Source of the DNA: Pontiella agarivorans
Lineage (GTDB): Bacteria; Verrucomicrobiota; Kiritimatiellia; Kiritimatiellales; Pontiellaceae
Assembly: GCF_034531395.1 (NCBI RefSeq)
Contig: NZ_JARVCO010000004.1
Coordinates: forward strand, 62,001 to 126,000
Direction: 5' to 3'
Length of the DNA: 64,000 bases
Positions 21,714 through 49,274 of the stretch are shown here, piece after piece. The notes under the pieces were generated by a model that saw only the letters and a program-made list of their open reading frames with translations, did no database searches and was not told the DNA's origin. Within the stretch, counting starts at the first letter, position 1. Each line of letters starts with the position of its first letter. The position numbers and the translations under genes were made by a program.

Positions 21714-24572
21714 TTATTCAATAGAATACGGCCTTTCAAAAGTCACTGCGTTCACCTGCACCCCGCTTAAGCCCGAACCACGGCTTCCGGGGCTGATTGA
21801 CTGAATGAAACCGTATGCACCATCTCCAGTCAGTGCAGTATAGATGGCGCTATCCACACCGGTTACAGTACCGGTCCCCGAATCGGTTCCGTCCGTCAGA
21901 TTCTGCAGCCGCACGGTGTAAACAGTATTTGCGGCATCCACCCCCAGAATCAGCTCATAGTCAAATTGCAGAATATCACCGGCATCCAGAACTCCGGTCA
22001 CATTTTCCGCACCGGAAATGACACTGTAATTATTAAGCAGACGATAGGTATCAGCATCCTTGAAAATCTGAATATTGGCATCAGCAGCATCGCCTCCGGT
22101 GCTGACAGGGGCATCCTCGTTGCTCGCTTTCAATCCGCCGAGGAACGTATACACCCAGTTGGTCGGAGTTGAATAAACCCCTCCGAATTCCAGGTTAACA
22201 CTCAACCGATAACGTTCGCCCACTTCAAGTTGAACAGCAGGGGTCAAAACCGCCGCGCTTCCGTCTTCATCCGTCCGGGCATAACCGGCTCCGGCCGAAT
22301 CACCGATAATCCAACCGGCTTCCGCATTCCAGTTCTGCTGGCCGTCCAATGTGCCGTCACTGTAGTCGGGGGAGGTAAACGTAATAACACTCACGACCGG
22401 CGAAGGCGATGCCGGCGCCTCACCTTCAAACAGCCGGAAAAATTCCTGCGGAACTGTAATCGGGTTCGTCACCGAACCGGCACCCGTGGCATCCACGGGA
22501 AGATTCGCCTGCACAACCGACCAGCTCGTATCCATCAAATTGGTTTTAGACTGCAATTCAATCCAGCCGTTAACCGGACCGTTGGTGAAACTGAGCAGCA
22601 CATTGGTTCCAACCACTGAAAAATCCGCAATGGGAATCCATCCGGACATTTCATCCTGCAGTTGCCAGGAAAAAGAGGACGGCGTCCAATCCGGCCCCGG
22701 AACCCAGCGGGAGCCTCCGTATTCATAGGCCCCGATATCCGGAGCGGAACCGGCATGCCCGTCTGTTACCCCGGCAATGAACCAGCCCTGATCCACAATA
22801 TCGGGATCATTCACCGGCATGAAATTTTTATCGGCAATGGAAACAAAGGGTGACGAGGCCTCCTGAATATTGTTGGAAAACACGTTATCGAGGGTTTCAT
22901 CTTCGGTATAGCTTCCGGCCCCCGAATCCCACCAGTCACGCACATCCGACAGATTGTTGATGAGCGTATTGTCCCGCACATCTTTTCGTCCATCACCGAA
23001 ATCCGGCACCCAGCACAGAATAACCGCCTCGTTGGTCCCGACATTCCAGAAGGTGTTGTTGTAGATTTCATTCTCCAGAGCATCCCAGTTAAAATGCAGA
23101 CCGCCCCATTGGACATCCCACACCACATTATGATGCACCTTGTATCCTGCGGTATCATTATCCAGATAAATACCGGTTGCCTTGATACCGGCATACGACG
23201 GCGAATAAGCATCATAAAACCAGTTATAACTGAGCTCCACATTCCGCGGAACACTATTCCCGGTAACATAGAACAGCCCGCCGTCTGCACACGCTTTCAG
23301 TCCGTCCGACACGTCGTTATAGCTGAATACCGTCCCCTCTCCGGTCGCCCGGGTAACGTCACGTGCAGAGCCGGAAATTCTGTTGCTCACAATGAGGGCA
23401 TCCGGGCCGTTCGAGCGAATCGGGCAGCAGTGATTGCCCTGCTGATTAAAGTTTTGAATGATGTTATTGCGGATGACGGTACGGTCTGCATTTCCGCCGA
23501 CGTTAATCCCGTTGGATGACCCCTCTTCCAGCAGACAGCGTTCAATCCGGTTATCATCTCCGGTAACCTGAACCGCCGCACCGCCGGCCGTGGATGCCCC
23601 CGAGGTATCAATGTCAGGAATCAGCCCGGCAATACAATGGCGCAGACGCAGATTTTCCAATGCACAGTGGTGCCCCCCCATATCCACAAACGCTCCGAAC
23701 AGATTAAGCCCCTCAACCTCGATATAATTTTTACTCAGATCAAGCGTCTTGTCGCGAACGGCAATCTCAACAACACCGGTGGATGGATCGACTCCGCCCG
23801 GCGCATAAAAATAGAGCGTTTGCGCGCCGGCGTCATAATACCATTCGCCCGGCGCATCCAATGCTTCAGGGCGGTTCAGCAGATAGAAAATTCCACGGTG
23901 TCCGTTTTCATAGGTTAACGGCGAATGATTGCTGAACGGCCATTGTCCCGTGGGCATCGGTGTAAACGAGAGTCGATGCGTTCCGGGATCAAACCCGGTG
24001 ATACTTCGCTGAATGGAACAGCCGCTGTGTGCTCCGAGCCAGAAGATCATGCCGCTGGTCCAGTAGTCCGGAATTTCATCATTCGTGATGTATGAATCAG
24101 AATAGGTTCCCGAGCCGGTTTCCGCAAATTCGGCATCATAGGTATAAGGATCGCCATCCAGATCATTCGGCCAGCGGGCCAGCTGCATAGCCTCGCTGTT
24201 GAAAAAGACCATGTTCTTATTTCCCATTGGCATATTCACACCGGTGGCTTTGTAGACATTCCCTGTATGCACCTGCCAGTTATCGACCACCTCGGTTCCC
24301 GAAACAACCACCGGATCATCGCTGTACGCCGTATACCGGATCGGCGAGCCGGAGGAACCATGCTGAAGCGGCTCAACGGTTTCCCGATAAATCCCCCGAT
24401 GAATATAACAGGTATCGCCCGCCGACATCACCCCCGATGCCTGGGCGATGGTTCGGAACGGATACGCGGCAGAACCGTCTTCATATATTTCAGGCGAAGC
24501 CTGATCCACATGATAATCTGACGCCCACGTCAACACAGGAAGTATGGCGAACCAAACCAACCGTTTTTTCAT
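21714..24572 (-). CDS. secreted right-handed beta-helix protein with two C-terminal accessory modules
   Basis: 952 residues with a signal peptide (1-16). Residues about 17-640 form a parallel beta-helix: a DUF1565/PL9-like entry (YPFRTIAQASGVMSAGDTCYI), then many short N-rich turns (NRIERCLLEEGSSNGINVGG, NVELSYNWFYDAYSP, NEIYNNTFWNVGTNEA). Residues about 665-730 carry the TNGP...TNL...QEFFR module. Residues about 735-952 carry the DGQQ-W module shared with the neighbouring GH86. It follows that GH86 by 25 bases in an operon with a sulfatase. Beta-helix enzymes include polysaccharide lyases and several GH families. I cannot name the family, so a galactan-active hydrolase or lyase is only a guess. 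Confidence 0.82.
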   Translation of the reverse strand: MKKRLVWFAILPVLTWASDYHVDQASPEIYEDGSAAYPFRTIAQASGVMSAGDTCYIHRGIYRETVEPLQHGSSGSPIRYTAYSDDPVVVSGTEVVDNWQVHTGNVYKATGVNMPMGNKNMVFFNSEAMQLARWPNDLDGDPYTYDAEFAETGSGTYSDSYITNDEIPDYWTSGMIFWLGAHSGCSIQRSITGFDPGTHRLSFTPMPTGQWPFSNHSPLTYENGHRGIFYLLNRPEALDAPGEWYYDAGAQTLYFYAPGGVDPSTGVVEIAVRDKTLDLSKNYIEVEGLNLFGAFVDMGGHHCALENLRLRHCIAGLIPDIDTSGASTAGGAAVQVTGDDNRIERCLLEEGSSNGINVGGNADRTVIRNNIIQNFNQQGNHCCPIRSNGPDALIVSNRISGSARDVTRATGEGTVFSYNDVSDGLKACADGGLFYVTGNSVPRNVELSYNWFYDAYSPSYAGIKATGIYLDNDTAGYKVHHNVVWDVQWGGLHFNWDALENEIYNNTFWNVGTNEAVILCWVPDFGDGRKDVRDNTLINNLSDVRDWWDSGAGSYTEDETLDNVFSNNIQEASSPFVSIADKNFMPVNDPDIVDQGWFIAGVTDGHAGSAPDIGAYEYGGSRWVPGPDWTPSSFSWQLQDEMSGWIPIADFSVVGTNVLLSFTNGPVNGWIELQSKTNLMDTSWSVVQANLPVDATGAGSVTNPITVPQEFFRLFEGEAPASPSPVVSVITFTSPDYSDGTLDGQQNWNAEAGWIIGDSAGAGYARTDEDGSAAVLTPAVQLEVGERYRLSVNLEFGGVYSTPTNWVYTFLGGLKASNEDAPVSTGGDAADANIQIFKDADTYRLLNNYSVISGAENVTGVLDAGDILQFDYELILGVDAANTVYTVRLQNLTDGTDSGTGTVTGVDSAIYTALTGDGAYGFIQSISPGSRGSGLSGVQVNAVTFERPYSIE

Positions 24573-24597: not shown

Positions 24598-27500
24598 TCA
24601 CGGCAACGTTACAGTCACCGAGTTCACCTGCAGACCGTCAAAACCGACATCGCTCTGCGTCAGGTTGTGGGATTGAAAAAAGCCGTAGGCACCACTGCCG
24701 GTGAGCGCATTATAGATCGCATCGTCCACACCGTTCACCGTACCGATCCCCGTATCATCTCCATCCGTCAGATTCTGCAGGCGCACCGTGTACGACGTAC
24801 TGGCCGCATCCACCCCGAGCGTAAGTTGATATTCAAACTGAAGAATATCCCCGGCATCCAGCGTGTTAGCAATCGTGGAAGCCCCGATACCGCTGTATTC
24901 ATTCAGCAACCGGTATTTATCTTCTCCGGTGTAAATCTGGATATTGGCATCAGCAGCCGTTCCGGCAGTGCCTACAGAAGAAGCAGTTTGACTCTCTTTC
25001 ATTCCGGCCAGGAAGACATACGCCCAGGCCGTCGGTGTGGAATAGGTCCCGCTGAATTCCATATTTATGGTAAGATGGTAAGTTTCTCCGACCCCCAGCT
25101 GGACCGCATTGGTCAGAATCGCCGCGCTTTGATTATCCGGAGTGAATGCCATTCCGCTCCCCGTCGAATTTGAAACAGTCCAACCGGATTCTGCAGCAAA
25201 GAGCTGCTGTCCGTCCAACGGTCCATCGCCATAATCCGGAGCCGTGAATGTAATAACCGGTATCCAGTTCGGGTTCTCGATGATTACCGGTTGCGTACCT
25301 ACGGATTCACTGCCCCCGTCCGTCGAATTGAAGCTGGCGAACAGATAATAAAAATTATCGGCCGGCAACTGATCGCTCGGAATGATGTCCTCCGGAATCC
25401 AGATCTGAGCTTCCGACGCGCCCGCCGCCGTGCCGGCCGCACCGGCATCCTCGGCCGTATAATCCTGCACCACGCTCCAGGGACCCGCAGAGGCATCAAT
25501 CTGCCTGAGCTTATAACTGATCCCGTCCGACGGAGAGAGAACCGTATGCCCCGCACCGGCCTGATATTCAGTCTTCACCGTCAGATACGTCCCATTGGTA
25601 AACTGCTGGTTTCTGTATTTGTTCACGTCATCGAAAACAATATCCGCAGCAGTGGACCCGACAGAAATGGAGCAGCTGTCAGTGAAGCCGCCATCGACAG
25701 TTTCCCCGGTAATAATTGCACTTCCGGAGGAAAGAGCGGTAACAATCCCGCCGGAAACCGTTGCAACCGCTGGATCGCTCGACGACCAGATTATACGTTT
25801 GTCCGCAGCATCATCCGGAGACAGACGGTAAAGCAGACGAAAGGTCCCGCCGGTACTGACGGATCCGACATCCGGCTCCATCGCGAATCCCGACACGGGA
25901 ATGCCCGGCGCAGAACCCTCAACAATTCTATAGAATTCCTGCGGAGCTGTGATCCGATTGGTAATAACACTCTGTCCCGCAGCATCGGTCGGGAGACTCT
26001 GCTGCTGCACCATCCAGTTTCCGGAAACAAGGTTGGTTACCGCATGCAGTTCAATCCAGCCGTTGGCCGGACCGTCGGTTACCTCCATCAGAAATTCCGA
26101 ACCCTGAACCATCGCAGAATCAATCGGAATCATTTTTGCGCGGGTGCGGATATCAGATTCAAACCTGAAAGTCTGCAGAGCAACAGAAGAGATATGCCCG
26201 CCGTTATCCGGAAACTCCACAGATACCGTATTGTTGCTCTGCAACAGCTCGTACGGCACCGGTATTTCAAGCACCCCGAAAAAAGAATCCCGCGTGGCCT
26301 GATCATACCCGCGCCAGTCATCCGGAACCGGCACCTCAGCTCCATTAACGGTCAGTACCGGCTTCAACGAAAGTCCGTGAGCACGCCCCGCGCCCAGACG
26401 CAGCACCGCGTCGCCATACCGGGCCGAAACGTTTACATTGGTTATGGAAAATTCAATTGGAACACCGGCCGAGATCGGCTGCAGGTATGTGGTGGCATAA
26501 TATTTGGATTCGACGGATGTTTTTTCGGGGACCACCGGATCGGAAAACTGATAGTTGATCACCGCTGTTGATGAGGCCGGAAGCGTTAGGGCGGCCAGTT
26601 CATTGGTTACATAATGATCCAGCACAACATTACCGGCAGTATCCGCATAGGTATGCTTTACTTCAACCGCTTCAAACGGCCGGGAAGTACCAAACAGATT
26701 CAACTCAACCGTCTGCGGTCCGGTATGGTCCAGACTGCTGACGATTACAAATGCATTCGTTTCATCTACATAGGCATCAACCTGAATATCGGGATCATCG
26801 GAAATGGTATCCACCCGAGTTCCACGCACTTCGTTCCACAACTGCCAGTATTTTATCCGTTCAGTGAAAACAAACGGCCCGTCCTTATCCTTTGGAGAAC
26901 CCAGCAGTTCATCTTCGTCGTATAGCAAGCGTGTCGGATAGGGATAACCATTGGCACTCCGCCCCCATTCCGCCTGCACCATCATAAACGGAATGGTCTG
27001 AATCATACGGTCAGGACGTTCGAGCAGCTGCATCAGAATCGTCGAATAGGAACGGACATCCACCCAGTCGTTTTTCGGATCGTACGGAACATCACTTTCA
27101 ACCGAAAGGCTGCCGTATTCCGAAATATTGAACGGCTTGATTTCGCCGAGCGTCAGCATGCTGTAATGCTCAATCATATCCAGCAGTGCTTCTACGTTGC
27201 TTCCCGAACGGTACTGATGCTCCAGCACATTCGTACTGCCGCCCGGGTTATCGTAGAGATGCAGTGAAAAGAAATCCATATGCTCTCCGGCGATATCGAT
27301 AAACGTTTTCCAGTTGGCCTCCCAATGTCCGAAATTACTGCCCTCATACTGAGGGTGAGCCGCACAGTACCCGCCAACCAAAACATCGGGATGAGAATGA
27401 TGAATCGCCGCCGCAACATTGGTATGCAGCCGTGAAATATTAGCCCGTGTAGTTCCCAACTCATCCGCTTTGACAAACGGCTCATTCAAAACCTCAACCA

Positions 27501-28047
27501 TGGCCGGTTTCGGTGCACCGTCTGTTCCGCCGCTTCCGTAGAAATCGGTCAGAAACTGTTCATAATAATCCGCCAGCGCTTCGTAACTTCCAATCGCAAA
27601 TCCATTACCGTTGGTCTGCCCGTTGGGATACATTCCCTCCTGACCGCCAATCATCATTTTCCGGGCACGGGATTCCAGTGAATGGGCATGCGTGTCGGAA
27701 GCATAATTGGAGCGCGCACTGTTACCGCGACTCAGCATATCGGCATGATTACACCATCCGGGTTTCGATGGATCTTCCGTTGTCTGACTCAGATTCCACG
27801 GAAGCGTTCCGTTTGCACGGCCCAGATAAACATCATTTTCCGTTAGAAAAGCCGTTTCCTGCGCTTCCGAATCCCAGGTATTTTCTCCCGCGCCCGCATG
27901 CAACACAAAATAGGTTTCCCGGTCCAGTTCCGAAACTCCACCCACTTCATGACGGGTATCCAGATTAATATCGACCGAAACCTGAGCGATGGCACCGCTC
28001 AGCCCCAGCACCGTTACCGCCGTGATTTTCCCTACTCTTTTTTTCAT
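24598..28047 (-). CDS. GH86 beta-agarase/porphyranase with Big2 and C-terminal modules
   Basis: Secreted endo-enzyme of 1149 residues. Signal peptide 1-22; GH86 barrel about 23-500 with the acid/base in VEVLNEPF (Glu189) and the nucleophile in FNISEYG (Glu310). A beta-sandwich follows at about 505-635. Next come a TNGP-type module at 640-710, a Big2 Ig-like domain at 716-797 (IIWSSSDPAVATVSGG), an unassigned segment at about 798-925, and the DGQQ module at 930-1149. It lies 10 bases after the sulfatase and before the beta-helix gene, which favours a sulfated substrate such as porphyran. Catalytic-domain similarity to the other three GH86 proteins is clear, but the linker domains differ. Agarase versus porphyranase cannot be decided here. 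Confidence 0.9.
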   Translation of the reverse strand: MKKRVGKITAVTVLGLSGAIAQVSVDINLDTRHEVGGVSELDRETYFVLHAGAGENTWDSEAQETAFLTENDVYLGRANGTLPWNLSQTTEDPSKPGWCNHADMLSRGNSARSNYASDTHAHSLESRARKMMIGGQEGMYPNGQTNGNGFAIGSYEALADYYEQFLTDFYGSGGTDGAPKPAMVEVLNEPFVKADELGTTRANISRLHTNVAAAIHHSHPDVLVGGYCAAHPQYEGSNFGHWEANWKTFIDIAGEHMDFFSLHLYDNPGGSTNVLEHQYRSGSNVEALLDMIEHYSMLTLGEIKPFNISEYGSLSVESDVPYDPKNDWVDVRSYSTILMQLLERPDRMIQTIPFMMVQAEWGRSANGYPYPTRLLYDEDELLGSPKDKDGPFVFTERIKYWQLWNEVRGTRVDTISDDPDIQVDAYVDETNAFVIVSSLDHTGPQTVELNLFGTSRPFEAVEVKHTYADTAGNVVLDHYVTNELAALTLPASSTAVINYQFSDPVVPEKTSVESKYYATTYLQPISAGVPIEFSITNVNVSARYGDAVLRLGAGRAHGLSLKPVLTVNGAEVPVPDDWRGYDQATRDSFFGVLEIPVPYELLQSNNTVSVEFPDNGGHISSVALQTFRFESDIRTRAKMIPIDSAMVQGSEFLMEVTDGPANGWIELHAVTNLVSGNWMVQQQSLPTDAAGQSVITNRITAPQEFYRIVEGSAPGIPVSGFAMEPDVGSVSTGGTFRLLYRLSPDDAADKRIIWSSSDPAVATVSGGIVTALSSGSAIITGETVDGGFTDSCSISVGSTAADIVFDDVNKYRNQQFTNGTYLTVKTEYQAGAGHTVLSPSDGISYKLRQIDASAGPWSVVQDYTAEDAGAAGTAAGASEAQIWIPEDIIPSDQLPADNFYYLFASFNSTDGGSESVGTQPVIIENPNWIPVITFTAPDYGDGPLDGQQLFAAESGWTVSNSTGSGMAFTPDNQSAAILTNAVQLGVGETYHLTINMEFSGTYSTPTAWAYVFLAGMKESQTASSVGTAGTAADANIQIYTGEDKYRLLNEYSGIGASTIANTLDAGDILQFEYQLTLGVDAASTSYTVRLQNLTDGDDTGIGTVNGVDDAIYNALTGSGAYGFFQSHNLTQSDVGFDGLQVNSVTVTLP

Positions 28048-30031: not shown

Positions 30032-30051
30032 AGGGCGCCCGTAGACGCCCT
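30032..30051 (-). terminator. terminator of the first PEP-CTERM gene
   Basis: A 6-bp stem, AGGGCG/CGCCCT, with an 8-base loop on the minus strand is followed by GTTTGTTT. It lies about 30 bases after the stop. TTCCAATGCCTGGAA (30062-30076) lies between stop and stem. Confidence 0.7.
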
Positions 30052-30079: not shown

Positions 30080-30814
30080 TCACATCATGAAACGACGGCG
30101 GATAAACAGCACTCCACCTCCGAACACGGCAATCAGACCGAGAGTTCCCGGCTCCGGCACAATTTCGAATCCATAGCTCATGTTACGGGTCCAGCCGTTA
30201 ACCGTTGTATTGTCCCGCTGTGTCAGCTCCCACACAACCGAATCAGTCGCCGCAAAATCAACATTCTTATTTTTATACTGATACGCTCCCGTTCCATCCA
30301 TAACGTTGGTTACACCAATCCCGTTAATTAAGGCCGCCACAGAATCCCCGTTGGCAGTGGACGCATTGCCGCTTGTACCCAAACCGGCACTGGTAAATCC
30401 AGTGAAGTTGGCAGACAAACCTGCGGTATCTGCAGTCACGGATGAGGAAACGTACTCCAGAGTCAAAGTATCCCCAACCTGCCAGGCTCCGCCGCTCGCA
30501 CGCATGCCTTGACCGTTGAGATCAACATTTCCATTGCTTGAGGTAAGCCGAAACGTATAGTCGATATAATCATTATCAGCACCGACGTCATCCAGGTTTA
30601 ATCCGGTCCATCGCAGATCAAAGGTGAAGGTTGTCGCGGTATCATCATTGGCTCCAAACGTACCGGGAACCGGTTCAACAATATCACCCGCAGATTCTGT
30701 CCCCCCCACAACGCCTGTACGAAGGTCGGTATAGGCGGTATTCACTGATGTCAGTGCGGCCGATGCCACGCCGGCAACGGCTGCCATCGCAATGAGTATT
30801 CCTGTTTTTTTCAT
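30080..30814 (-). CDS. PEP-CTERM sorted secreted protein
   Basis: 244 residues. Signal peptide about 1-19; central 200-residue beta-rich, Asn/Thr/Gly-rich domain without recognisable catalytic motif; C-terminal sorting tail VPEPGTLGLIAVFGGG followed by LFIRRRFMM. The VPEP motif, hydrophobic helix and basic end are the diagnostic PEP-CTERM pattern, recognised by an exosortase that is not in this window. Function unknown; an envelope or extracellular matrix protein is likely. It lies downstream of the four-repeat secreted protein, with two strong hairpins between them, and has its own terminator. Confidence 0.9.
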   Translation of the reverse strand: MKKTGILIAMAAVAGVASAALTSVNTAYTDLRTGVVGGTESAGDIVEPVPGTFGANDDTATTFTFDLRWTGLNLDDVGADNDYIDYTFRLTSSNGNVDLNGQGMRASGGAWQVGDTLTLEYVSSSVTADTAGLSANFTGFTSAGLGTSGNASTANGDSVAALINGIGVTNVMDGTGAYQYKNKNVDFAATDSVVWELTQRDNTTVNGWTRNMSYGFEIVPEPGTLGLIAVFGGGVLFIRRRFMM

Positions 30815-30834: not shown

Positions 30835-30889
30835 CGGCAGGGTTCAACCCTGCCGGATAAAATCAGTGCCCGGCGGGATACCCCGCCGG
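30835..30889 (-). terminator. two tandem GC-rich hairpins
   Basis: CCGGCGGG-N4-CCCGCCGG (30870-30889) and CGGCAGGGTT-C-AACCCTGCCG (30835-30855) follow each other in the gap between the 1015-residue protein gene and the PEP-CTERM gene. The first is 17 bases beyond the upstream stop. They are similar in sequence (CCGGC-GGG...CCC-GCCGG). A terminator or mRNA-stabilising pair is likely. Confidence 0.6.
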
Positions 30890-30906
30890 ACAAACAGAAG
30901 TATTGA

Positions 30907-33900
30907 TTACTTAGTGACTTCCAGTCGGATGAATACATTGTCGGCACTTTGGCCGATATTGCTGATGTATTCTTCGAGCACACCGTTATTGGATACCGGA
31001 ACGGTTTCATGTACGCCCCAGAGACTTTCCACGGCGAGATTGACGTTGGTCATCACGTTCACCGTCAGCGTGTCATCCCCGATCACAGAGAAGGTATAGT
31101 CCGAGCCATCGTAGGTCGGAATGACCCCGATATCACCGGCACCCGTTCCCGGCATCGGATCCCCGCCGAAGGCATACTCGCCCAGGTTGTTCATCCCGTC
31201 GCCATCAAGATCGGCATCGGCATCACCGTGCTCACCGACGAGTCCATAGGAAGCCACCCAGCTGGCATACCCGCTGACGACCGCTTGCGGTGCAATCAGT
31301 TCGAGGCTCATAACTTCAATCCCGGTAAGGCCGGAACCAAATCCCCCGGTTTCGAAGTACGGGTAGGCCGCGCCGTTTTCCAGTGCACTGTAGAAGATTT
31401 CACTCACGCCGCTTTCCGGAGTGCTATAAGCACCTCCGACTCCCGAAGTCAGGTTCGTGAGTGCTACACTGAATACAGTGGAAGCGGCGCTGTCACCCAT
31501 CGTCAGGTTATAACGGATTTCCCACTCATCGCCGTCCGTCAATGCAGTCCAGCCCGTTTGCGGACCGTTCCAGCCATCGCCGTAAACACGCAATGTATTT
31601 GCATTATTCTGCGCCTGCAATGTCGCCATGGCTCTGTTTTCACGGGTGGCACTTCCATCATAACCGACATCCGTTCCATCCGTCTTGGTGGTTAGACCAA
31701 TACGTGCGAGATATACAAATCCCGCCGGAACATGTGTTCCCAGAACTTTATATCGGACAGCAAACTCAATGGAATCGCCAACCGGCAGCGGAATGTCCTT
31801 CAGCAAGGTCATATTAATGTTATTGTTTGTGCAGGTAACCGTTCCTCCGGAAGCCGTATCCACCAACCAGCTTCCTCCGGCCACCCAGGAATTCTGGCCG
31901 TTGATCGCACCGTTGACATAATTTTCACCGGCGATGAATTCGATCTCGTTGGTGACCGTTACATAGTCCGGCGGCACAACAACAACGCCCGGAACAGAAC
32001 GCAGCCGGATGTTGTCGATGAAGTAGTTCGGTCCTGAAACCGGATCCGTTCCGTTGTCATCATTAATCAGAAGGGCTTCCACTGCGGTCAACGCCTCTGC
32101 ATCAGAATCAAATGTACCGGTCCAGGTGATGGTATTCCATTCATCCGGAACCAGCGTGCTGATGGCCTTCGAACCCCCGGCAACCCCCGCTACGCTGTAG
32201 GAGATGGTATCATCTGCAACATTGGCATCAGCCAGCTGGATAGAGGACACATAGATATCGAATGTCAGCGCCCAGTCCTGTCCCGCATAGAGTGCCCAGT
32301 AACGGTTTGACACACCATAGGAAGAGATGTCACCGCCGGTCAGATCAGCGGATTTGAACATGCCGATTTCTCCCTGTTCCGTGGCAAACGGATCTGAAAT
32401 CGAAGCCAGCATCATTCCGCCGTCTTCCGGAGCAACATCGACCCATAGATCGTCCGCGTCGTCGACTTCGGCCGGCGCAACAGCTTCAATTTTGAAGTTA
32501 CGCGCATAATAGTTCGGGCCTGAAGCCGGATGTGTATCCTGGTGGTTATTGATCAAGCGTATGTATGAATTCGTCAGAGCAGAAGGCTCATTCGTAAACA
32601 CACTGCTATGCGTAACAGTTACCCATTCATCAGCAATCATTTGATCTCCGACGGAGGTATAACCGGAACTTGCTCCGTCAATCTGGAAGAACAGACCGTC
32701 ATCTGTGACATTGGTATCTCCAGCCTGAGCTGAAGCAACATACATTTCAAAACTGAAAGTATAGGTTTGTCCTGCATAGGCAGACCAATCGTTGTTATAG
32801 CTTCCGTAATTTACATACCGGCCGAGGCCGTCGGAAGCAAACTCACCGATACCGGTTCCAAACGCGTTTGTAACCAGTGTGAATGCCATCGCACCACCCT
32901 CAGGATTCGGATCATTCCACAGCGTATCCATCGGCAATCCCGGAACAGCCTGAGTTTCAAATTTAAAGTTATCCATGTAAAGATTAGCCCCGGCCGGATG
33001 GGTGGCTTTGTCATTGAACAGGACTTGAGCACTGGCAGAGGTCAGATCATTCGGATTGATCGGCATGATGCCGAACCAAGTGACGGTATTCCACGAATCC
33101 GCCACGAAATTGAGATTACTGACTTCTGAATATCCCCCGGCATTTCCAGCAACACTGTAGTACATCGTGTCATCCAGAACCGCTGGATCCGCCAGCTGCG
33201 CCGAGGTAATGTAAATATCAACAGACAGCTGCCATTCAACGCCGGCATACTGCTCCCAGTTGTCAGAACCGGAATTATAATTCCCCCACTGACCGGTATG
33301 CGTGGCCGAATTGTACTCCCCGATATCACCATGACCGGTATCACTGCCGGTAACTGCAGTTTCTGTGGTCGCGCCCAGCATCATATTTCCGTTAACCGGC
33401 GCCTGGTCATCCCACAGCACCGCATCGTATACCGGGATGTTGCAGACCAGACTCAGATTATCCAATGTATAATTGGATCCTGCATCGTGTGTATCCTTGT
33501 CATTATTCACAAATGCAAAAGTCGCATTCGCAAGCGAAGCCGAGGCGGCCGGAAACGTCCCCTTCCAGATCACTGTGTTCCAGGCATCGGCCGTCCACCA
33601 GGAGGCATTGGCCAGCGTCAGATTTCCGCCGGAAGCAAGCACATCGGTTCCATCCAGCAGCTGCCAGGATATCGTGTCATCGTTAACGTTCGTGTTCGCA
33701 AGCTGCGCGGCTGTAATGTAAATATCAGCTGTAAACGTCCAATCACGGCCGGCATAGGTCGACCAGTCATTTCCTTCGGTCGCATAGGTCGACACATTGG
33801 TCCCTGACGTCGTTGCACTGGAATCAAATACGCCGGCCGATAAATTCATCGTGCCGCCGGCGGGATTCTGATCATCCCATAGGACGGTATCCTGCGCCTG

Positions 33901-33954
33901 GACAACAGCAGCCATCGATGCCGCCCCCAAGGCTGTGAACAGTAGTTTTCTCAT
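30907..33954 (-). CDS. secreted non-catalytic protein with four tandem beta-sandwich repeats
   Basis: 1015 residues. Signal peptide 1-20. Four repeats of about 150 residues at 24-171, 179-333, 344-489 and 503-652. Each begins LW(D/N/V)D...P..GG.M and ends with a HPAGxNYxxDNF-like strand, a CBM-like pattern. A diverged copy of the DGQQ-W module follows (about 669-890, INGQNSWVAGGSW...). A calcium-binding segment, DADADLDGDGMNN, and a closing beta domain complete the protein. No catalytic residues are evident. I infer a galactan-binding surface or scaffold protein, which could take the place of SusD/SGBP proteins in a phylum without them. GGAG precedes the ATG. It lies directly downstream of the first two-component pair. 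Confidence 0.85.
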   Translation of the reverse strand: MRKLLFTALGAASMAAVVQAQDTVLWDDQNPAGGTMNLSAGVFDSSATTSGTNVSTYATEGNDWSTYAGRDWTFTADIYITAAQLANTNVNDDTISWQLLDGTDVLASGGNLTLANASWWTADAWNTVIWKGTFPAASASLANATFAFVNNDKDTHDAGSNYTLDNLSLVCNIPVYDAVLWDDQAPVNGNMMLGATTETAVTGSDTGHGDIGEYNSATHTGQWGNYNSGSDNWEQYAGVEWQLSVDIYITSAQLADPAVLDDTMYYSVAGNAGGYSEVSNLNFVADSWNTVTWFGIMPINPNDLTSASAQVLFNDKATHPAGANLYMDNFKFETQAVPGLPMDTLWNDPNPEGGAMAFTLVTNAFGTGIGEFASDGLGRYVNYGSYNNDWSAYAGQTYTFSFEMYVASAQAGDTNVTDDGLFFQIDGASSGYTSVGDQMIADEWVTVTHSSVFTNEPSALTNSYIRLINNHQDTHPASGPNYYARNFKIEAVAPAEVDDADDLWVDVAPEDGGMMLASISDPFATEQGEIGMFKSADLTGGDISSYGVSNRYWALYAGQDWALTFDIYVSSIQLADANVADDTISYSVAGVAGGSKAISTLVPDEWNTITWTGTFDSDAEALTAVEALLINDDNGTDPVSGPNYFIDNIRLRSVPGVVVVPPDYVTVTNEIEFIAGENYVNGAINGQNSWVAGGSWLVDTASGGTVTCTNNNINMTLLKDIPLPVGDSIEFAVRYKVLGTHVPAGFVYLARIGLTTKTDGTDVGYDGSATRENRAMATLQAQNNANTLRVYGDGWNGPQTGWTALTDGDEWEIRYNLTMGDSAASTVFSVALTNLTSGVGGAYSTPESGVSEIFYSALENGAAYPYFETGGFGSGLTGIEVMSLELIAPQAVVSGYASWVASYGLVGEHGDADADLDGDGMNNLGEYAFGGDPMPGTGAGDIGVIPTYDGSDYTFSVIGDDTLTVNVMTNVNLAVESLWGVHETVPVSNNGVLEEYISNIGQSADNVFIRLEVTK

Positions 33955-34249
33955 CTTTTAATCTCCTCGTTTCACCGCCGTGCAGTCCTTTCCATGGCGC
34001 GGACCTCCTAACACGACCGTTAACATGAGTTGTTCTAACAAGGAGAGAAAATGCGAACTATGGGCCAAAAGACCCATACTTTTTACCCGCCATCATCCCG
34101 AACAGAATAAAAACCACAAACCATTAATTACAAGACTGTTGCGACGCAACCAAACCTTGTGATTTATCCCGGGAAAAACCGGATGAAAAGCGAACCGGAA
34201 ACGGCCGCAAAAATACCTTCACGGATGGCGGCCGTTCCGCAGAACCGCC
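33955..34249. other. 295-base non-coding region between the first response regulator and the repeat protein
   Basis: It contains TATGGG-N8-CCCATA (34059-34078) followed by CTTTTTAC on the plus strand, and GTTAACGG on the minus strand (34017-34024, CCGTTAAC on plus), the same octamer as the XylR-upstream repeat. A plus-strand AAGGAG...ATG frame of 19 codons (34051-34110) is present but unsupported. It is likely the promoter region of the 1015-residue protein gene. Confidence 0.45.
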
Positions 34250-34885
34250 CTACTCTTCGTCCAGTTTCAAAATGCCTTTTTTATAAGCAATTACCACCGC
34301 CTGCGTGCGGTCGGCCGCCCCGAGTTTTTCCCGGATGTTGGTGATGTGGTGCTTCACGGTCGACATCGAAATATTGAAATACTCCACGAGCTCTTTATTG
34401 CTGGTGCCCTGACCGAGCATCTGCAGCAGTTCCAGTTCCCGCGGGGTCAGCTCTTCCTGCTGTTTGCGCGCAGAAATTTTCCGGGCAATTGACGCCGGAA
34501 AAAAAGAATACCCCTCCGCCACCTCGTGAATGGCTTCCATCACATCCTCAACCGCGCTGGCCGATTTGGTCAGATAGCCCTTAACACCGGCCTGTACCGC
34601 TTTCCAAACCTCTTCCTCCGACTCAAAGACGGAGAAAAGAATCACCTTGGCATCGGGATCAATCGCCATAATTTTCTCCGTACACGCCACCCCGTCCTCG
34701 CCCGGCATGCGGTAATCCATGGTCACAATATCGGGTTTCATCTTCTGATAAAGTTCCACCGCCTCTTCGCTGCTCGACGCATCACCGGCGGCCTCCAGCC
34801 CCGGCTCCATATCAATCGCTCCCAGCAGCCCGAAACGCAACAACTGATTATCATCCACCACCATAACCCTTATGTTTTCACTCAT
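34250..34885 (-). CDS. NarL/LuxR-family response regulator (pair 1)
   Basis: 211 residues from the ATG at 34885, which overlaps the kinase stop as ATGA and has GGAG upstream. The receiver domain (about 1-120) has acidic residues in VVDDNQ, the phosphorylated Asp in [12 protein letters not shown], and the conserved Lys in LTKSAS. The LuxR-type helix-turn-helix is at the end: [43 protein letters not shown]. It is coupled in translation to the kinase. By position it should regulate the repeat protein, GH86 genes or itself. Family assignment certain; targets inferred. Confidence 0.95.
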
Positions 34886-37083
34886 GCCTGCTCCAGCTCC
34901 CATTCTTTTAGCGAGGCCAGTTTCACTGTAACTGTGGTCCCCTTGTCTATCTCGCTTTCAATCGTAAGTTCACCCTTAATCCGGTTGATTCGTTCATGCA
35001 TCCCCCGCACGCCGAAATGACCGGCCGGCGGTAACTGCTCGGGATCAAATCCTTTGCCGTTGTTATATATTGTCATAGAGAGAGACGACGCCCAATAGGT
35101 TAATTCAACACGGATTTCTGTTGGATTCCCATGACGCACCGCATTGGTGACCGCTTCACGCGCCACCATCAGCAGATTCCGGTCGGCGATCTGCTTCAGC
35201 CGTTTCGGCATACCCGACACCCGGATATCGAGCTCGGCCAGCCCTTCATCGGCCAGCGGTTGCAGCGCCTGCCTGAGCGCCGCCGGCAAATCCATTTTTT
35301 CCAGCAGGCCGCCGCGCAGATCGATAATGGAAGTCCGCGATTCATCCCCGCAATAAGCCAGCATCTCCTGTGCTGCAGCAAACTCATGCACATTCCGCCC
35401 CATATCCGCATCAAAACGCTCCGCCAGATTTTCCAGCGGCTGGAACGCATCGGCCATTTTCCAGAGTTCGGAGGAAAATGTTTCTGTATTGTGCTTCAGG
35501 AGACGACGGGAGCCCTGCAACTGAATCGCCGTACCGGCCAGCCCCTGCTCCAGATTATCGTGCAGCTCGCGTGCAATTCGCTGTCGCTCATCCAGCACCG
35601 CTTCCCGCTCCACCTTATCACTGATAATTCCGGTCTGGCGCTCAACGGTCTTGCGTAACAACAGGGTCCAGGCCACAAAAAGCAACAGAATGGTAAAGAT
35701 AATTCCCACCGCCCAGAGCAAGCGTTTCACCGTCCACCACGGGGCCGGCTTAATAACAGTAATGTCATCCACACCCCGCAGTTGAAGCCAGAGTCCATCA
35801 GCATAAAGCCGCCAACGCATATCTTCATTATGCATCAGATTACAGATCCCCGTAAGCTCCAGAACCGCACCGGGCTTCAGTTCCTCCGGCCCTTCCACCC
35901 CGATCGGAAGCCGCGCCTCAAAGGAGTTATCCCCGGAACGGCACAGCAGACTCACCTGTACCGCATTTCCACTTTTTTCAGCGGGGGCGGCAAAGGATTT
36001 CCCCACCTCCAAAAGCTGAGCCTGCATCCGAATCAGTCCATAGTTCAGCCGCGAATCCATCAGGTCTTCCGGAAGATCCGTTCCAAACAACTCGTCCAAC
36101 TCCACATCCACCGGTTCAGGCTGCTTCCCGGTATCGCTCAAAACACGCACTTTCAGCGCGCGGAAGGCCGGACTGACCGGCTGCGGCCAGGCAAATCCCT
36201 CCACTTCAACACGCTGCCCCACTTTCAGGCCATCGCTGTTCATCACGGCCACACGAAGAGCGGATTCCGCACCCCGCAGATAAATATCATTTCCCGATGC
36301 ATGCGTAACCAAACCGCGCGTGCGTACCGGCTTCTGAGGATCCATCGTGACCTGCATCAGCTCCTCAATCGGCACATTGACGGCAGCATGATGAAGCCCC
36401 TCCTCCTCGATCAGCTCAAAGTCCATAATCGAATCAGCAATAAAAACCCGCCCGGTCATCTGCCGCTGTGCGTTATAAATGGTTCCAACGATGGCATTAA
36501 ACCGAACCCGGCGAAACATGCAGTCGGGCAGCTTTTTCCACACCGGCACCACAGCCGGCATATTCACACCCAGCTGGATCGAATCATTGATCTCCAAAAG
36601 CAGATAAAAGCGCCCATAAGGAGCCGCCACATCGGAATAGCCGATCACGCGCCCTTCCACCGAGACCCAATCACAATCGCTGGCAGGACGGTTGATTTCA
36701 TCCAGCTGGAACGGCCGGCCCCGCGGCGGCGGTTTCCAGCCGTCCACCTTCACATCAACCGCCTCAATCGCCGGATAAAATTCACCGGGATACGTCTTCC
36801 CTTCGATTTTAACCAAAGCACCGGTATGCAAACGCGGCAGTATGGTATGGTCACCGGGCCGCTGAACATACGCTCCCCCGTTTTCCGTAAGAATAAAAAA
36901 ATGGGCTCCGCCCGGCGACAGACAGACCAGCTGACCGGAAACCTCAACCGGAATACCCATCGCCGCTTCCTCAACCGACAACTGCCTCAAATCCATTACA
37001 TTGGTAATCACCGACTGTCCGAAAGACGGACACGCCAGCAGCAACAGCATACACACACCTGAAAAAAACCGCATCAATATCAT
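34882..37083 (-). CDS. NarL-type sensor histidine kinase with OB-fold-like periplasmic domains (pair 1)
   Basis: 733 residues. Signal peptide 1-22; large periplasmic region 23-450 built of repeated OB-fold-like units (for example [44 protein letters not shown]-type endings). One membrane helix lies at about 455-477. A HisKA_3 domain follows with the phosphorylated His508 in [16 protein letters not shown]. The HATPase domain has [12 protein letters not shown] and [20 protein letters not shown]. It has no PAS, Cache or HTCS-type beta-propeller domain. Paralogous to the 43778-46663 kinase but lacks that protein's N-terminal domain. Two palindromes lie just upstream of the start. Placement among GH86 genes suggests a galactan-derived signal. 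Confidence 0.92.
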
Positions 37084-40154: not shown

Positions 40155-43055
40155 TCAAGGCGTTATTGTGCGCATGACCGAATGAACCCGCACACCATTC
40201 AGCCCCGAATTATTGGCTCCCGGATTAATCGTCTGGAAAAAACCATAGGCTCCGCCGCCGTTCAGGGCACTGAAAAGCGCCGCATCCACACCACTCACCG
40301 TTCCTGTTCCGGTATCGGTGCCATCGGTCAGATTCTGCAGCCGGACCGTATAGGCTGTGCCCGCCGCGTCGGCGCCCATCGTCAGGACATAATCAAACTG
40401 CAGCAGATCTCCGGCATTCAACGGTGCTCCGGTGATATTGGATGCCCCCGACACCGTCGAATAATTACTCAACAGACGATAGGTATTTTCATCTTTAATA
40501 ATCTGGATATTTGCATCGGCAGCAATCGCATTTCCGGCTCCGACCGATTCCCCGGCACGGCTCTCCTTCAGGCCGCCGAGAAAGGTGTACACAAAGTTGG
40601 TCGGTGTTGAATCGCTGCCGGTGAATTCAAAACTGATACGCAGGCTGTAACTTTCGCCGGCCGCCAGTTGCACAGACTCATCGAGCACCGCCGCCTGTCC
40701 GCCGGCCGTGGTTTCAATCCGGCCCGAACCGGCGGCATCGACCACACTCCAGCCGGAGTCTGCATTCCATAACTGCTGTCCATCCAGCGTGCCGTCCGTA
40801 TAATCCGGAGCGGTAAATTCAATACGTCCTGGAATGGGAACTTCAGGCGCATCGGTTTCCAGCAGCCGGAAAAACTCCTGCGGATAAGCCACCGGATTCG
40901 TAACCGATCCTGCACCACCGGAATCAATGGACAAACCGGCCTGATTGGTCACCCAGCTCCCATCAACCAGATTCGTATTGGAAAGCAGCGAGAACCAGCT
41001 TCCGGCCGGACCGTTAGAAAAACCGAGAACGATATCGGTACCCAGCATTTCGTAATAATCAATATCAATATAAGACGGTGGCGTCTGTCCATCATCGATG
41101 ACCCGCAGCGCAACAGTACTGATATGCCCGCCACGGTCGGGAAACACCACTTCAACCAGGTTGTTTTCCTGAAGCTGTGCATGGTCCACCGGCACATGAA
41201 GCATTCCGAAATACTGAGATCGGTCATCCTCTTCGAATCCCATCAGATCGGCCGGAACCGCAACCGAAACCCCGTTCACTTTAACCGTCGGTTGCTGCGA
41301 CAATCCGTACGCCCGGGCAAAACCGATGCGCAGTTCCGCACGGCCCGACAATCCCGGCACAACACCGTTGATGCGGAATGAATTGGTTAAACCGGCATCG
41401 ATGGCTTTCAGGTAGGTGTCGGCATAATATTTGGATTCCGAAAGCGTCTGTTCAATCTGTATCGGGGAAGCCAGGGTGTATTCCAGAATCACACATCCTT
41501 CGCGCCCCACCTGAACCTGAGCAATATCACCGACATGGTTGGTTTCGACCAGCGCAACAGAACCGACATCCCCGACACCGTCCCAGTAAAGGTTTTTCTC
41601 CAGCACGCTCTGAACAGTATTGCTGTATGCATCGAACAGCGAAAGTTCCACGTCGGAGATTTCATCCACCAGATTATTAATGATCAGATAAACCTTATCA
41701 TCATCCGCATAAGCATCCACCTGGATATCCGGGTCGTCCGAAGTCACATCAAGCCGCGCACCTTTCACATTCGCCCACTGATCATAAAATTTCACGAGAT
41801 CGGTATAAATCCAGTCCCCGGTATAACTCTCCGGCTCATTCTCCTGCCGCAGCAGGCGCGGTCCGTAGGGTTCACCGGTCGATGAATTCCGCCCCCACTC
41901 CGCTTTCACCACCGTGAACGGAATGGTCTTCAGCATCATGTGCGGACGATCCATGAAAGCCAGCATCATGGCATTGCAGGATTTCAGACGCAGCCAGTCA
42001 CGATAGGCATTCCAGCCCTGATTATTATAATCATGGGTCTGCGCACCGTATTCTGAAATCATATACGGACGACGAACCCCCAGCTGTTTTTCACTGTAAT
42101 AATCGATCATATCGAACATGGCTTCCATGTTCGCCCCTTTGCGATATTTCTGCAGCCCGCCTCCAATGCTTGGAAAATCGTAAAGATGCAGGCTCCAGAA
42201 ATCCATTTTTTCGCCGGCGATGTCGATGAACGATTTCCACTCGTCGTCCCATTCCTGAAAATTGTCTTCATCGTGATCCGGAAAGGTGGTCACAAAACCG
42301 CCGATCAGCGAGTTGGTATTGTGCGCTCGGATTCCATCCGCCACCCCATTATGAAACCGCCAGATATCATCCGCCGTTGCGGAGCCGTAATCCGGATCGG
42401 ATGACCAATCGAGGATATGCCAGTCGGGTTCATTGATAATTTCCACAAAAGCCGGCGATGGACGACCGTTTCCGTTTTCCCCGAAGTTATCGTAAAAATT
42501 ATCCAGATAAAGGCCCATAAAATCGCCGGTTGCAGAACCCAGCGGCTCCGTCGGGGAATCATTCGTCGAAATGGCCCAGCCGTTATACTCGGCTCCGTTG
42601 GGCCAGAATCCGCTGTACTGAGCACATAGAACATCCCCTGTTGCACGGGATTCATAGGCATGCCGGCTCGTCTCACCGTCGTAGGAATTGCGCGACTTCG
42701 TCCCCTCGCTCACCATGGTCGAAGCATCCACCCATCCCGGGTTGGCAGCATCTTCGTCGATGTATGCATTCCCCCGCCGCTGCCAGCTGATACCGCCGGT
42801 TTCACGCCCGAAATAAACATCCCGCCCATTCATGAAATCATCCAGCAGGTCCGGCACGGCATTCGCCGCCCCCTGCTGCCCGCCATCCCAGTCGCTTTCG
42901 GTATGACTGGAGTGAATAGTTATGAATTTTTCCCGCTCAAAGGTTGAAACTCCGCCCGCTGCACGACCGGTATTCAGATCAACCTCAACCGAGACTCCGG
43001 CTGCACAAAACGGCAGAAGCAGCCCCACGGAAATAGTCCCTATATACATCTTCAT
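40155..43055 (-). CDS. GH86 beta-agarase/porphyranase with DGQQ-type C-terminal module
   Basis: Secreted enzyme of 966 residues. Signal peptide 1-20; GH86 barrel with the acid/base in VEIINEPD (Glu209) and the nucleophile in YMISEYGAQ (Glu335). A beta-sandwich with QQPTVKVNG and GFEEDDRSQYFGML follows. The TNGP...TNL...QEFFR module is at about 665-735 and the DGQQLW module at 745-966. GAGGGACG gives the ribosome site. It lies downstream of the second two-component pair, 106 bases after the response regulator stop, with a TATCCAATGGCTGGAA element in that gap. It is a good candidate for direct control by the pair. Confidence 0.93.
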   Translation of the reverse strand: MKMYIGTISVGLLLPFCAAGVSVEVDLNTGRAAGGVSTFEREKFITIHSSHTESDWDGGQQGAANAVPDLLDDFMNGRDVYFGRETGGISWQRRGNAYIDEDAANPGWVDASTMVSEGTKSRNSYDGETSRHAYESRATGDVLCAQYSGFWPNGAEYNGWAISTNDSPTEPLGSATGDFMGLYLDNFYDNFGENGNGRPSPAFVEIINEPDWHILDWSSDPDYGSATADDIWRFHNGVADGIRAHNTNSLIGGFVTTFPDHDEDNFQEWDDEWKSFIDIAGEKMDFWSLHLYDFPSIGGGLQKYRKGANMEAMFDMIDYYSEKQLGVRRPYMISEYGAQTHDYNNQGWNAYRDWLRLKSCNAMMLAFMDRPHMMLKTIPFTVVKAEWGRNSSTGEPYGPRLLRQENEPESYTGDWIYTDLVKFYDQWANVKGARLDVTSDDPDIQVDAYADDDKVYLIINNLVDEISDVELSLFDAYSNTVQSVLEKNLYWDGVGDVGSVALVETNHVGDIAQVQVGREGCVILEYTLASPIQIEQTLSESKYYADTYLKAIDAGLTNSFRINGVVPGLSGRAELRIGFARAYGLSQQPTVKVNGVSVAVPADLMGFEEDDRSQYFGMLHVPVDHAQLQENNLVEVVFPDRGGHISTVALRVIDDGQTPPSYIDIDYYEMLGTDIVLGFSNGPAGSWFSLLSNTNLVDGSWVTNQAGLSIDSGGAGSVTNPVAYPQEFFRLLETDAPEVPIPGRIEFTAPDYTDGTLDGQQLWNADSGWSVVDAAGSGRIETTAGGQAAVLDESVQLAAGESYSLRISFEFTGSDSTPTNFVYTFLGGLKESRAGESVGAGNAIAADANIQIIKDENTYRLLSNYSTVSGASNITGAPLNAGDLLQFDYVLTMGADAAGTAYTVRLQNLTDGTDTGTGTVSGVDAALFSALNGGGAYGFFQTINPGANNSGLNGVRVHSVMRTITP

Positions 43056-46789: not shown

Positions 46790-49102
46790 TCACGGCATAT
46801 TGGTCGTAATCGTCGTTTTAAAGAACAGCCTGTCGCTGGTGCTCAGCTCCCGGGTGACGGCATCATACATAGCATCATGCGGCGTACGGTTGATTGAATC
46901 CCAGACGGCCGGGGTAAAGTCAATATTCACCAGATCCGGAGTCGTCAACAGATTATAGGAAATTCCACTGAGCGGATCCGTCAGCTCAACGATGGTGTAA
47001 TACACAACACCGTTGGAAACCGTCATTTCCGGAAGTACACCGACATCCGCCGGATTGGTGGGGTTCCCGGCCCATCCGTATTCATGAAGATTGAGCATTC
47101 CGTCCCCATCAAAGTCTTCATAGGCTCCGCTGTTCGGTTCACCGGCCATACCGTATTCTTCCAGAAAAGCATCAAACCCTTCCGGTTCCGGCGGGGGATT
47201 CAGCAGAATAACCGCCGCCAGATTATCTATTTCATACCCCGCCGGATTTGCGCCGCTGACAGCATCACCGTCACTCAGATCATCCGCAGTATAAATGCAG
47301 AAGTAGGTTGGATTATTGTAGGCCGCAGCATTCACAATGGCGATATCTTCAACACGGTACGACATCGCCGTTATTTTATTGGAAACCATCATGCTGCACA
47401 GCCAGGTATCAGCCACGGCCGTTTTCTTTGCGGTGTAGGAGACGGCCAGTTCATCGCTTTCGTGATCGGCCGTTCCGAGATCAATACCGAGATCAGACAG
47501 CGGAATACGCAGCACCGGCGGGGTGATCGCCATGTAATCATCATCGGCAGCAAAGGTGATCGCCACATCATTACTGTTCATGGTCTGGTACCAGGCAAAA
47601 CCCAGCTCTGTACCGGTCGCTCCGAAACGTTTAGCTGCCTGGTTACCCGTGGTTGAAAAAAACATATCAATGAACCGTCCGTCGTCCGAACCGTTCACAA
47701 ACATTTTCCAGTCGTAAGTAACCCGCAGGGTTTCGTTCGAAACCAGCACACGCGCCGGATCAGTGACATAAACACCGCGGTTAGCAAGACCGCCGACATT
47801 GGTATCCGATGGAATGCCGCCGAAACCGCCATCAGCCGGCAGGTCGGCCAGCCCCGGACGATGCTTGATGACCGTCGGACTCCCGGCAGTATCACCGCCG
47901 CTCCACCAATACTGATCGAAATTCAGCAAATCCATTCCATAAGTTGGAAGGTTCCAGCTGTACAGCGCATGCGGCGTCCAGAATGAACCCAGATTCCAGT
48001 TATATACCACTTCCAAAGCGGGCAATACGGTCCGGATATTCAGATTATCAATTTTATTATTAAAGGTCGCATTCGGATTCGAATGATACCCCACCTCCCA
48101 GACAATCTTTTCAATCGGAGCCGACAGGTCTCCCGAAGTTGCCGCCGTATACGTTACGAGTCCTGCATTGGTTACCGGCTCGATGACCCACTGCGCCAAA
48201 CCGGCAGCATAACCCGTCACCGTAGGATTCATGCTGCTCTCCGGCGGGTTGCCTTTATTGGCTTCGATATCAATGGATTCCACAACAAACCAGGACTTGC
48301 TTCCGTCCTTGTAGATTTCAAAAGTCCCCGGTTCCTGGTCGTTTGCCTCATAGGCCGCTTTCAAAGCTGTTCCATTTGCACCGCCCGGTCCATCACCGCC
48401 GCTGGACGCCGTTGCCCGGCCACCGACCTGCATGACAATGCCGTTATTCGTTTCACTGTAGCTGAAACTGGGAACCTCCCACCAGTTTCCGTCAAATTCC
48501 TCCCAGTCAAAAACCGCAGTGTCTTCCTGAAAAACCGGTTCATCCGCGGTCGTGATACTCAGGTTATCAATCTGGTTTTGATAGTTTGCCCCCGCATTGG
48601 TTGAAATGCCCGTATGCCAGACAATCTTACTGACCGGATTGGTTAAACTGCTCATACCGGCTGGTGTATAGGTGGTAAAACCAACCCCTTCTGCGGGAAC
48701 AATCGTCCAGACCACAGCGCCGTCTGCAGTTCCTTTAACCGTCGGGGTGTATTCCCCGTCGCCGAATGCACTGATATCAATGGAATCAATCACAAAATAG
48801 GTATCCACTCCGCTCTCCTGAAATGTGAATTCACCGGCAGAGCTATCCTGTGGATCATAATCCACTTTAAGGGCGGCTCCATTATCTCCGCCCGCACCGT
48901 CACCGCCGTCTACAGCCGTTGCCCGTCCGCTTGCATTCATCACTATTCCATTATTTGTTTCGCTGTAGCTGAAGCTGTTAATCTCCCACCACGCGCCATC
49001 AAATTCTTCCCAGTCAAACGTGGCGCTGAGGCCTGCGGCTCCAGTTTGTATTACCGCACAGGAAGCCAGCACTCCTCCCAGCAACAATGGTTTCATTTTC
49101 AT
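46790..49102 (-). CDS. secreted non-catalytic protein with two FDW modules and calcium-binding tail
   Basis: 770 residues from the ATG at 49102 (AAGGAG 8 bases upstream, signal peptide 1-23). Two copies of the FDWEEFDG-x-WWE module occupy about 27-185 and 196-357, each ending in a QIDNLSI/KIDNLNI strand. A 290-residue beta-sandwich follows (SWNLPTYGMDLLNFDQYWW...). Then comes a calcium-binding segment, EDFDGDGMLNLHEYGWAGNP, and a C-terminal beta domain. No catalytic motif is visible. The same module caps two GH86 enzymes here, so binding of agar or porphyran is a reasonable inference. It may be a surface glycan-binding protein. Confidence 0.85.
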   Translation of the reverse strand: MKMKPLLLGGVLASCAVIQTGAAGLSATFDWEEFDGAWWEINSFSYSETNNGIVMNASGRATAVDGGDGAGGDNGAALKVDYDPQDSSAGEFTFQESGVDTYFVIDSIDISAFGDGEYTPTVKGTADGAVVWTIVPAEGVGFTTYTPAGMSSLTNPVSKIVWHTGISTNAGANYQNQIDNLSITTADEPVFQEDTAVFDWEEFDGNWWEVPSFSYSETNNGIVMQVGGRATASSGGDGPGGANGTALKAAYEANDQEPGTFEIYKDGSKSWFVVESIDIEANKGNPPESSMNPTVTGYAAGLAQWVIEPVTNAGLVTYTAATSGDLSAPIEKIVWEVGYHSNPNATFNNKIDNLNIRTVLPALEVVYNWNLGSFWTPHALYSWNLPTYGMDLLNFDQYWWSGGDTAGSPTVIKHRPGLADLPADGGFGGIPSDTNVGGLANRGVYVTDPARVLVSNETLRVTYDWKMFVNGSDDGRFIDMFFSTTGNQAAKRFGATGTELGFAWYQTMNSNDVAITFAADDDYMAITPPVLRIPLSDLGIDLGTADHESDELAVSYTAKKTAVADTWLCSMMVSNKITAMSYRVEDIAIVNAAAYNNPTYFCIYTADDLSDGDAVSGANPAGYEIDNLAAVILLNPPPEPEGFDAFLEEYGMAGEPNSGAYEDFDGDGMLNLHEYGWAGNPTNPADVGVLPEMTVSNGVVYYTIVELTDPLSGISYNLLTTPDLVNIDFTPAVWDSINRTPHDAMYDAVTRELSTSDRLFFKTTITTNMP

Positions 49103-49274
49103 CGATCTCACTCCTTGGTTTGAATAACGGACCGTATTCACTGCGGGACAAATCCTGTTCCCACCTATTGATGCTGATACGTTAGGTCACTCTCCCGGCT
49201 TTCGGTATTGGATATCTATCCAAGGTTTGAAACCTCCCGGATCATCCCGCAGACTCTGCGGCCTGAATGCAAAA

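Follow-up and report, generated by a model that had tools for sequence, protein, structure and literature searches.

SusD feeds the SusC barrel, and the locus described here raises the question of how polymer is held by a cell when that pair is missing. For agar-degrading Kiritimatiellota without SusC/SusD, the literature that we found does not address polymer holding. The window (the whole stretch of 64,000 nucleotides that was analysed) lies on contig C4 of an assembly of 4,436,865 bases in 12 contigs, which was used for the genome-wide searches and is genome G000 in the comparisons below. According to PMC10880615, Pontiella agarivorans NLcol2 is an anaerobic bacterium able to grow on agar and carrageenan. 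As expected from that growth, the locus is an agar/porphyran cluster. It contains GH86 enzymes with porphyranase domains at 24598, 37368, 40155 and 52384, together with GH2 enzymes, an enzyme of the alpha-L-fucosidase family, a GH43-like enzyme, sulfatases, an aldehyde dehydrogenase, an enolase-superfamily enzyme and two kinase/regulator pairs, and it has an MFS sugar transporter of the inner-membrane type (2-1549). The first-pass annotation had described the locus as free of SusC/SusD, and this holds: the SusD profiles PF07980 and PF14322 found no match genome-wide, with a control Bacteroides genome positive, and the six places in the genome with a TonB-receptor barrel are all off contig C4. 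It had also put forward a secreted four-repeat protein as a possible SusD substitute, which is the subject of this analysis. As a separate observation, a 636-aa protein encoded on the complementary strand at 49335-51245 has no Pfam match. Its N-terminus is TonB-like, with a single membrane helix ahead of a stretch rich in proline and lysine, and the segment after this resembles PA14 on visual inspection.

The gene of the four-repeat protein (30907..33954 on the complementary strand, as for all coordinates written with dots below) is an open reading frame of 1,015 amino acids. Full-length relatives are found in genomes G025 (82% identity), G014 (contig SZUA-494, 58%) and G019 (contig SZUA-380, 47%), and the relative in G017 is a three-repeat form of 874 aa. 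Residues 1-21 (33892..33954; MRKLLFTALGAASMAAVVQAQ) read as a Sec signal peptide in which no cysteine was seen by eye, the lipobox cysteine being absent, and residues A16, Q19, A20 and Q21 are invariant in four relatives. The protein is presumably exported via Sec. The signal peptide is followed by repeats R1 (aa 22-175; 33430..33891), R2 (aa 176-343; 32926..33429), R3 (aa 344-497; 32464..32925) and R4 (aa 498-660; 31975..32463), which are homologous in all six pairwise BLASTP comparisons (34-41% identity, E 1e-24 to 1e-34). Next come a 228-aa module, here called module D (aa 667-894; 31273..31956), and a C-terminal tail module of 121 aa that carries the stretch DADLDGDG (30910..31272). Much of this agrees with the first-pass annotation, whose count of four repeats stands, with lengths of 154-168 aa in place of exactly 150, and whose description of the repeat ends matches the starts LWDD/LWND/LWVD and ends NYxxDNx. 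Its DGQQ-like module exists as module D, with the motif NGQNSW; DGQQ is the form in the enzymes of the locus. A terminator-like hairpin of 11 pairs, 9 of them G-C, was found 3' of the gene by pattern matching only (30867..30892); 11 such hairpins were observed in the region by this means, against 3.8 expected. Another strong one lies 3' of the neighbouring PEP-CTERM gene (30032-30051).

The whole protein had no match in Pfam (E up to 5) or in NCBIfam, the PEP-CTERM motif being among those absent, and none was found to PDB sequences or to plasmids; a scan of viral contigs revealed no relative. The repeats and module D reach Pfam at weak E-values only, CBM_11 being touched by one of 21 repeats (E 0.016, in a search that states no cut-off for members after the first). 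In the PDB, profiles of the two hit only designed or unrelated proteins, over short stretches and with low scores. The earlier statement that the protein has no catalytic residues stands only as the absence of a Pfam, NCBIfam or PDB sequence match.

An AlphaFold model of R2 was made from an alignment of 12 rows (window, L057 and L058), giving a mainly beta structure with short helices (pLDDT 87.2, pTM 0.83). Its structural neighbours by Foldseek and VIA-align were jelly rolls, with Z 10.6 for a GH51 arabinofuranosidase domain, 10.1 for PP2 lectin, 9.6-9.9 for CBM22-type domains and 9.8 for CBM27. Meprin MAM, Eph receptor and Stig cyclase domains were also among them, and the Foldseek rows included CBM8 and the surface glycan-binding protein SGBP-B 7k44. 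Since rows no more than 1 apart in Z are tied, R2 is best called a CBM-like jelly roll of unspecified family, and PDB entries missing from these fold lists rule nothing out. Compared with CBM22, CBM27 and CBM11, the repeat has the same predicted fold (Z 9-10), one that jelly rolls beyond CBMs have too, but it has no family match at cut-off, and jelly rolls of unrelated proteins score on a par with its best CBM rows. The rows stand barely above the background of Z 7-8 and include enzymes and protein-binding domains, so the fold alone is no proof of sugar binding. The first-pass annotation had named a non-carbohydrate fold of one repeat as an outcome that would speak against glycan binding, and this outcome was absent, with the qualification that MAM, Eph and Stig cyclase domains are jelly rolls as well. 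These protein-binding neighbours (MAM, Eph) would also fit an adhesin at the surface or in the matrix, with jelly rolls that bind not the algal food but other proteins or a sulfated exopolymer made by the cell itself. According to PMC7356697, close relatives make such sulfated exopolymers.

In model 2 (mean pLDDT 74.9), most of module D has pLDDT values of roughly 80-96 per ten residues. The predicted structure has the fold of the L-type (legume) lectins (Z 16-17 and rmsd 3.1-3.6 across about 200 residues), at about 10% identity. Three further copies lie in the window, each at a C-terminus: on the GH86 enzymes 24598-28047 (24601..25248) and 40155-43055 (40173..40823), and on the beta-helix protein 21714-24572 (21729..22373). 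Counterparts are present in G025, G014, G017 and G019, and the profile of module D matched 9 of 387 phylum genomes, four of them within the genus. Genome G262 combines strong module D matches with GH86, and in the distant genome G228 the module is joined to a GH30 domain, so that, like a CBM, it occurs on catalytic domains (two GH86s and this GH30). As G228 had no PF18040 (GH86) match, galactan specificity of module D is not obligatory. The repeat, by comparison, was seen on no catalytic enzyme in the loci examined.

The distribution of the repeat bears on what it might bind. Strong matches to the repeat profile were confined to five of the 28 genus genomes, and phylum-wide five of 387 genomes matched at E 0.001, the fifth, G267, weakly; weak cousins of the repeat also occur in G000, G025 and G014, one of them a PEP-CTERM protein. 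GH86 (PF18040) was found in eight of the 28 genus genomes, and all five repeat carriers are among these eight. The hypergeometric P for this co-occurrence, uncorrected for kinship, is 0.0006 over the 28 genomes and, likewise uncorrected, 0.015 over the 14 that are at least 90% complete. Three genus genomes (G005, G022 and G023) have GH86 and no repeats, showing that the repeat protein is not required for having GH86. The presence of GH86 in every strong carrier, the location of the gene with galactan-cluster genes in all five, and the module D that protein and enzymes have in common argue against the adhesin, which we consider unlikely.

Conserved gene order links the protein to its regulatory neighbours. 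The repeat gene was said to sit beside two-component pair 1, and indeed 295 bp separate it from a response regulator of the NarL/LuxR type (34250..34903), with sensor kinase 1 next upstream (34882..37083). On its other side is a small PEP-CTERM companion of 244 aa (30080..30814; TIGR02595 above cut-off), and the genome encodes a single exosortase. In G025, G014 and G017 the genes from the kinase through the regulator and the repeat protein to the PEP-CTERM protein are contiguous as well; G019 has the same gene order, but sulfatase-like genes separate the regulator from the repeat protein. The counterpart of kinase 1 in G025 (L026:4019-6057) is in two overlapping frames, due to a frameshift or an assembly error. 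In three of the four other carrier genomes the companion consists of one of these domains, the repeat in G025 (E 2.8e-57) and G017 (E 6.8e-14) and module D in G019; in the window and G014 it is neither. Upstream of the repeat gene, a block that includes a hairpin (34008..34078) is alike in the window, G025 and G017 and is a possible promoter or regulator site. Two conserved upstream stretches were searched for as a locus-wide regulatory motif; the sole exact match of each lay upstream of the repeat gene, and the second had one further match, with 3 mismatches, inside the repeat gene. Because the exact matches occur once in the window, these stretches are not a locus-wide motif.

The same kinase and regulator lie upstream in all five genomes, while the genes that follow vary, as would be expected if the protein were a substrate-sensing partner of kinase 1, which would read either the galactan after capture or the protein in its loaded state. 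Pair 2 likewise adjoins a second non-catalytic protein of several modules, which points the same way. Mere regulation of the repeat gene by the pair predicts this neighbourhood link equally well, however, and since the protein is presumably exported, its contact with the kinase is hypothetical; we regard a sensing role as quite improbable. The second protein (46790..49141) has two copies of another module, F, followed by a tail of the same type, and module F also occurs once at the C-terminus of each of the GH86s 37368 and 52384. Both tail-bearing proteins of the window, 30907 and 46790, adjoin a kinase/regulator pair. A broader arrangement of capture and sensing without SusC/SusD could be drawn from this, in which a non-catalytic lectin-like protein would be dedicated to each two-component pair (to pair 1 the one with four repeats and module D, to pair 2 the one with two modules F) and would share a module with local enzymes, the companion being one such domain sorted by exosortase as a PEP-CTERM protein. 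Glycan capture would then supply digestion and signalling alike, although we think it doubtful that the locus is organized in this way.

The acidic C-terminal tail had been described as a calcium-binding DxDxDG tail. The DxDxDG stretch is present, within the 121-aa module, but it is not specific to this protein: at an E-value of 0.001 or below, the tail profile found 55 places across the genome (for example L063, L064, L069 and L070), and the idea of a special calcium-binding feature was rejected in favour of a generic C-terminal module that many secreted proteins have. In 28 of the 30 best tail loci, which include the 30907 and 46790 proteins, a stop codon follows within 8 residues of the tail end. 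Pfam was run on 20 of these 30, most of which the 1.5 kb flank truncated on the 5' side; a family was found for 7 (GH16, GH42, GH10, CBM96, laminin-G, and sortilin twice) and for none of the other 13. The tail region of model 2 (residues 232-285) had a pLDDT below 50. As the tail is common genome-wide and C-terminal, also on GH16, GH42 and GH10 enzymes, sorting or retention is its most plausible role, and it would be a candidate sorting signal of the lineage. The contig also encodes, about 4.4-6.3 kb ahead of the window, a GH16 enzyme with the same tail (L033:13718-15553). A relative of the TonB-like 49335-51245 protein at L033:11368-12495 has a PEP-CTERM protein and two proteins with the tail nearby. 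The DxDxDG stretch is dockerin-like and, with modules common to protein and enzymes, could suggest a cellulosome-like scaffold that docks enzymes via their module D or tail. There was no cohesin or dockerin family match, the shared modules are of the same kind and not complementary pairs, and within the window the tail profile finds only the 30907 and 46790 proteins and none of the GH86s; such a scaffold is very unlikely.

When the modules were compared with G025, identities were 94% for R1, 79% for R2, 56% for R3, 90% for R4, 84% for module D and 94% for the tail. The dN/dS ratio was 0.04-0.15 in every module, which on these sequence comparisons indicates that the modules are under purifying selection. 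R3 is the divergent repeat: its dS is 2.8 (saturated), against 0.7-1.5 in the other modules, and its nucleotide identity falls to about 47% near aa 400-460. Since the divergence extends to silent sites, module replacement or conversion is its likely source. In a tree of the repeats, R2 and R4 of the window grouped with their counterparts of G025 and G014, and R1 with those of G025, G014 and G019; as repeats cluster with counterparts in other genomes, they are old and distinct and have not been recently amplified.

As a member of the SusD family the protein fails, because its fold differs, the lipobox is missing and it has no SusC partner. SusD has a helical fold, and what the four-repeat protein has in common with it is merely a proposed role: it has no SusD profile match or other sequence match to SusD, no lipoprotein signal, and no SusC-type TonB-dependent barrel was found on the contig. 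Without a lipobox cysteine it would lack the outer-membrane anchorage of a SusD or SGBP lipoprotein. A functional replacement that passes oligosaccharides to an outer-membrane transporter could be argued from the genome-wide absence of SusD and from the inner-membrane MFS sugar transporter of the locus. The lack of a TonB-receptor barrel on contig C4, the absent lipobox and the predicted beta-sandwich array, as against the helical SusD fold, make this the most improbable of the alternatives. These failures concern membership of SusD; in a wider sense the protein may still capture polymer for the cell. A closer likeness is to SusE, SusF and SGBP-B of Bacteroidota, which are also non-catalytic proteins of serial beta-sandwich modules (predicted in our case) encoded in a polysaccharide locus. 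The four-repeat protein differs from these in having no lipobox and therefore no outer-membrane lipoprotein signal, no SusC/SusD partner and one repeat family in four copies, and also in its L-type lectin module and its type of C-terminal tail. The neighbour at 30080-30814 and the single-repeat versions in other genomes belong to the PEP-CTERM surface proteins, but the four-repeat protein itself has another C-terminal tail.

The reading that we favour, and hold to be fairly likely, is that of a secreted, non-catalytic, multivalent glycan-binding protein of the agar/porphyran utilisation locus, which probably keeps the seaweed polymer close to the enzymes. Multivalent glycan binding, as the first-pass annotation had suggested, is supported by the predicted CBM-like fold of the repeats, the predicted lectin module and the presence of module D on agar/porphyran enzymes. 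The restriction of strong repeat matches to genus genomes with GH86, the shared gene order with a PEP-CTERM companion, the purifying selection and the growth of the organism on agar also speak for this reading. The four CBM-like jelly rolls and the L-type-lectin-fold module would bind algal galactan, the ligand suggested by the locus, and module D on the GH86 enzymes would direct these to the same polymer; the same lectin module on protein and enzymes would, we propose, gather enzymes and polymer in one place. The shared tail may sort the protein to the cell surface or matrix or retain it there, the small PEP-CTERM companion would be a second binding piece sorted by exosortase, and pair 1 may regulate the repeat gene. 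The repeat and module D are two module families without a Pfam match at cut-off and are possible probes for algal galactans. If confirmed, the protein would be a concrete candidate for polymer holding without SusC/SusD in agar-degrading Kiritimatiellota, and binding proteins of the phylum would be sought among lectin-like arrays in place of SusD.
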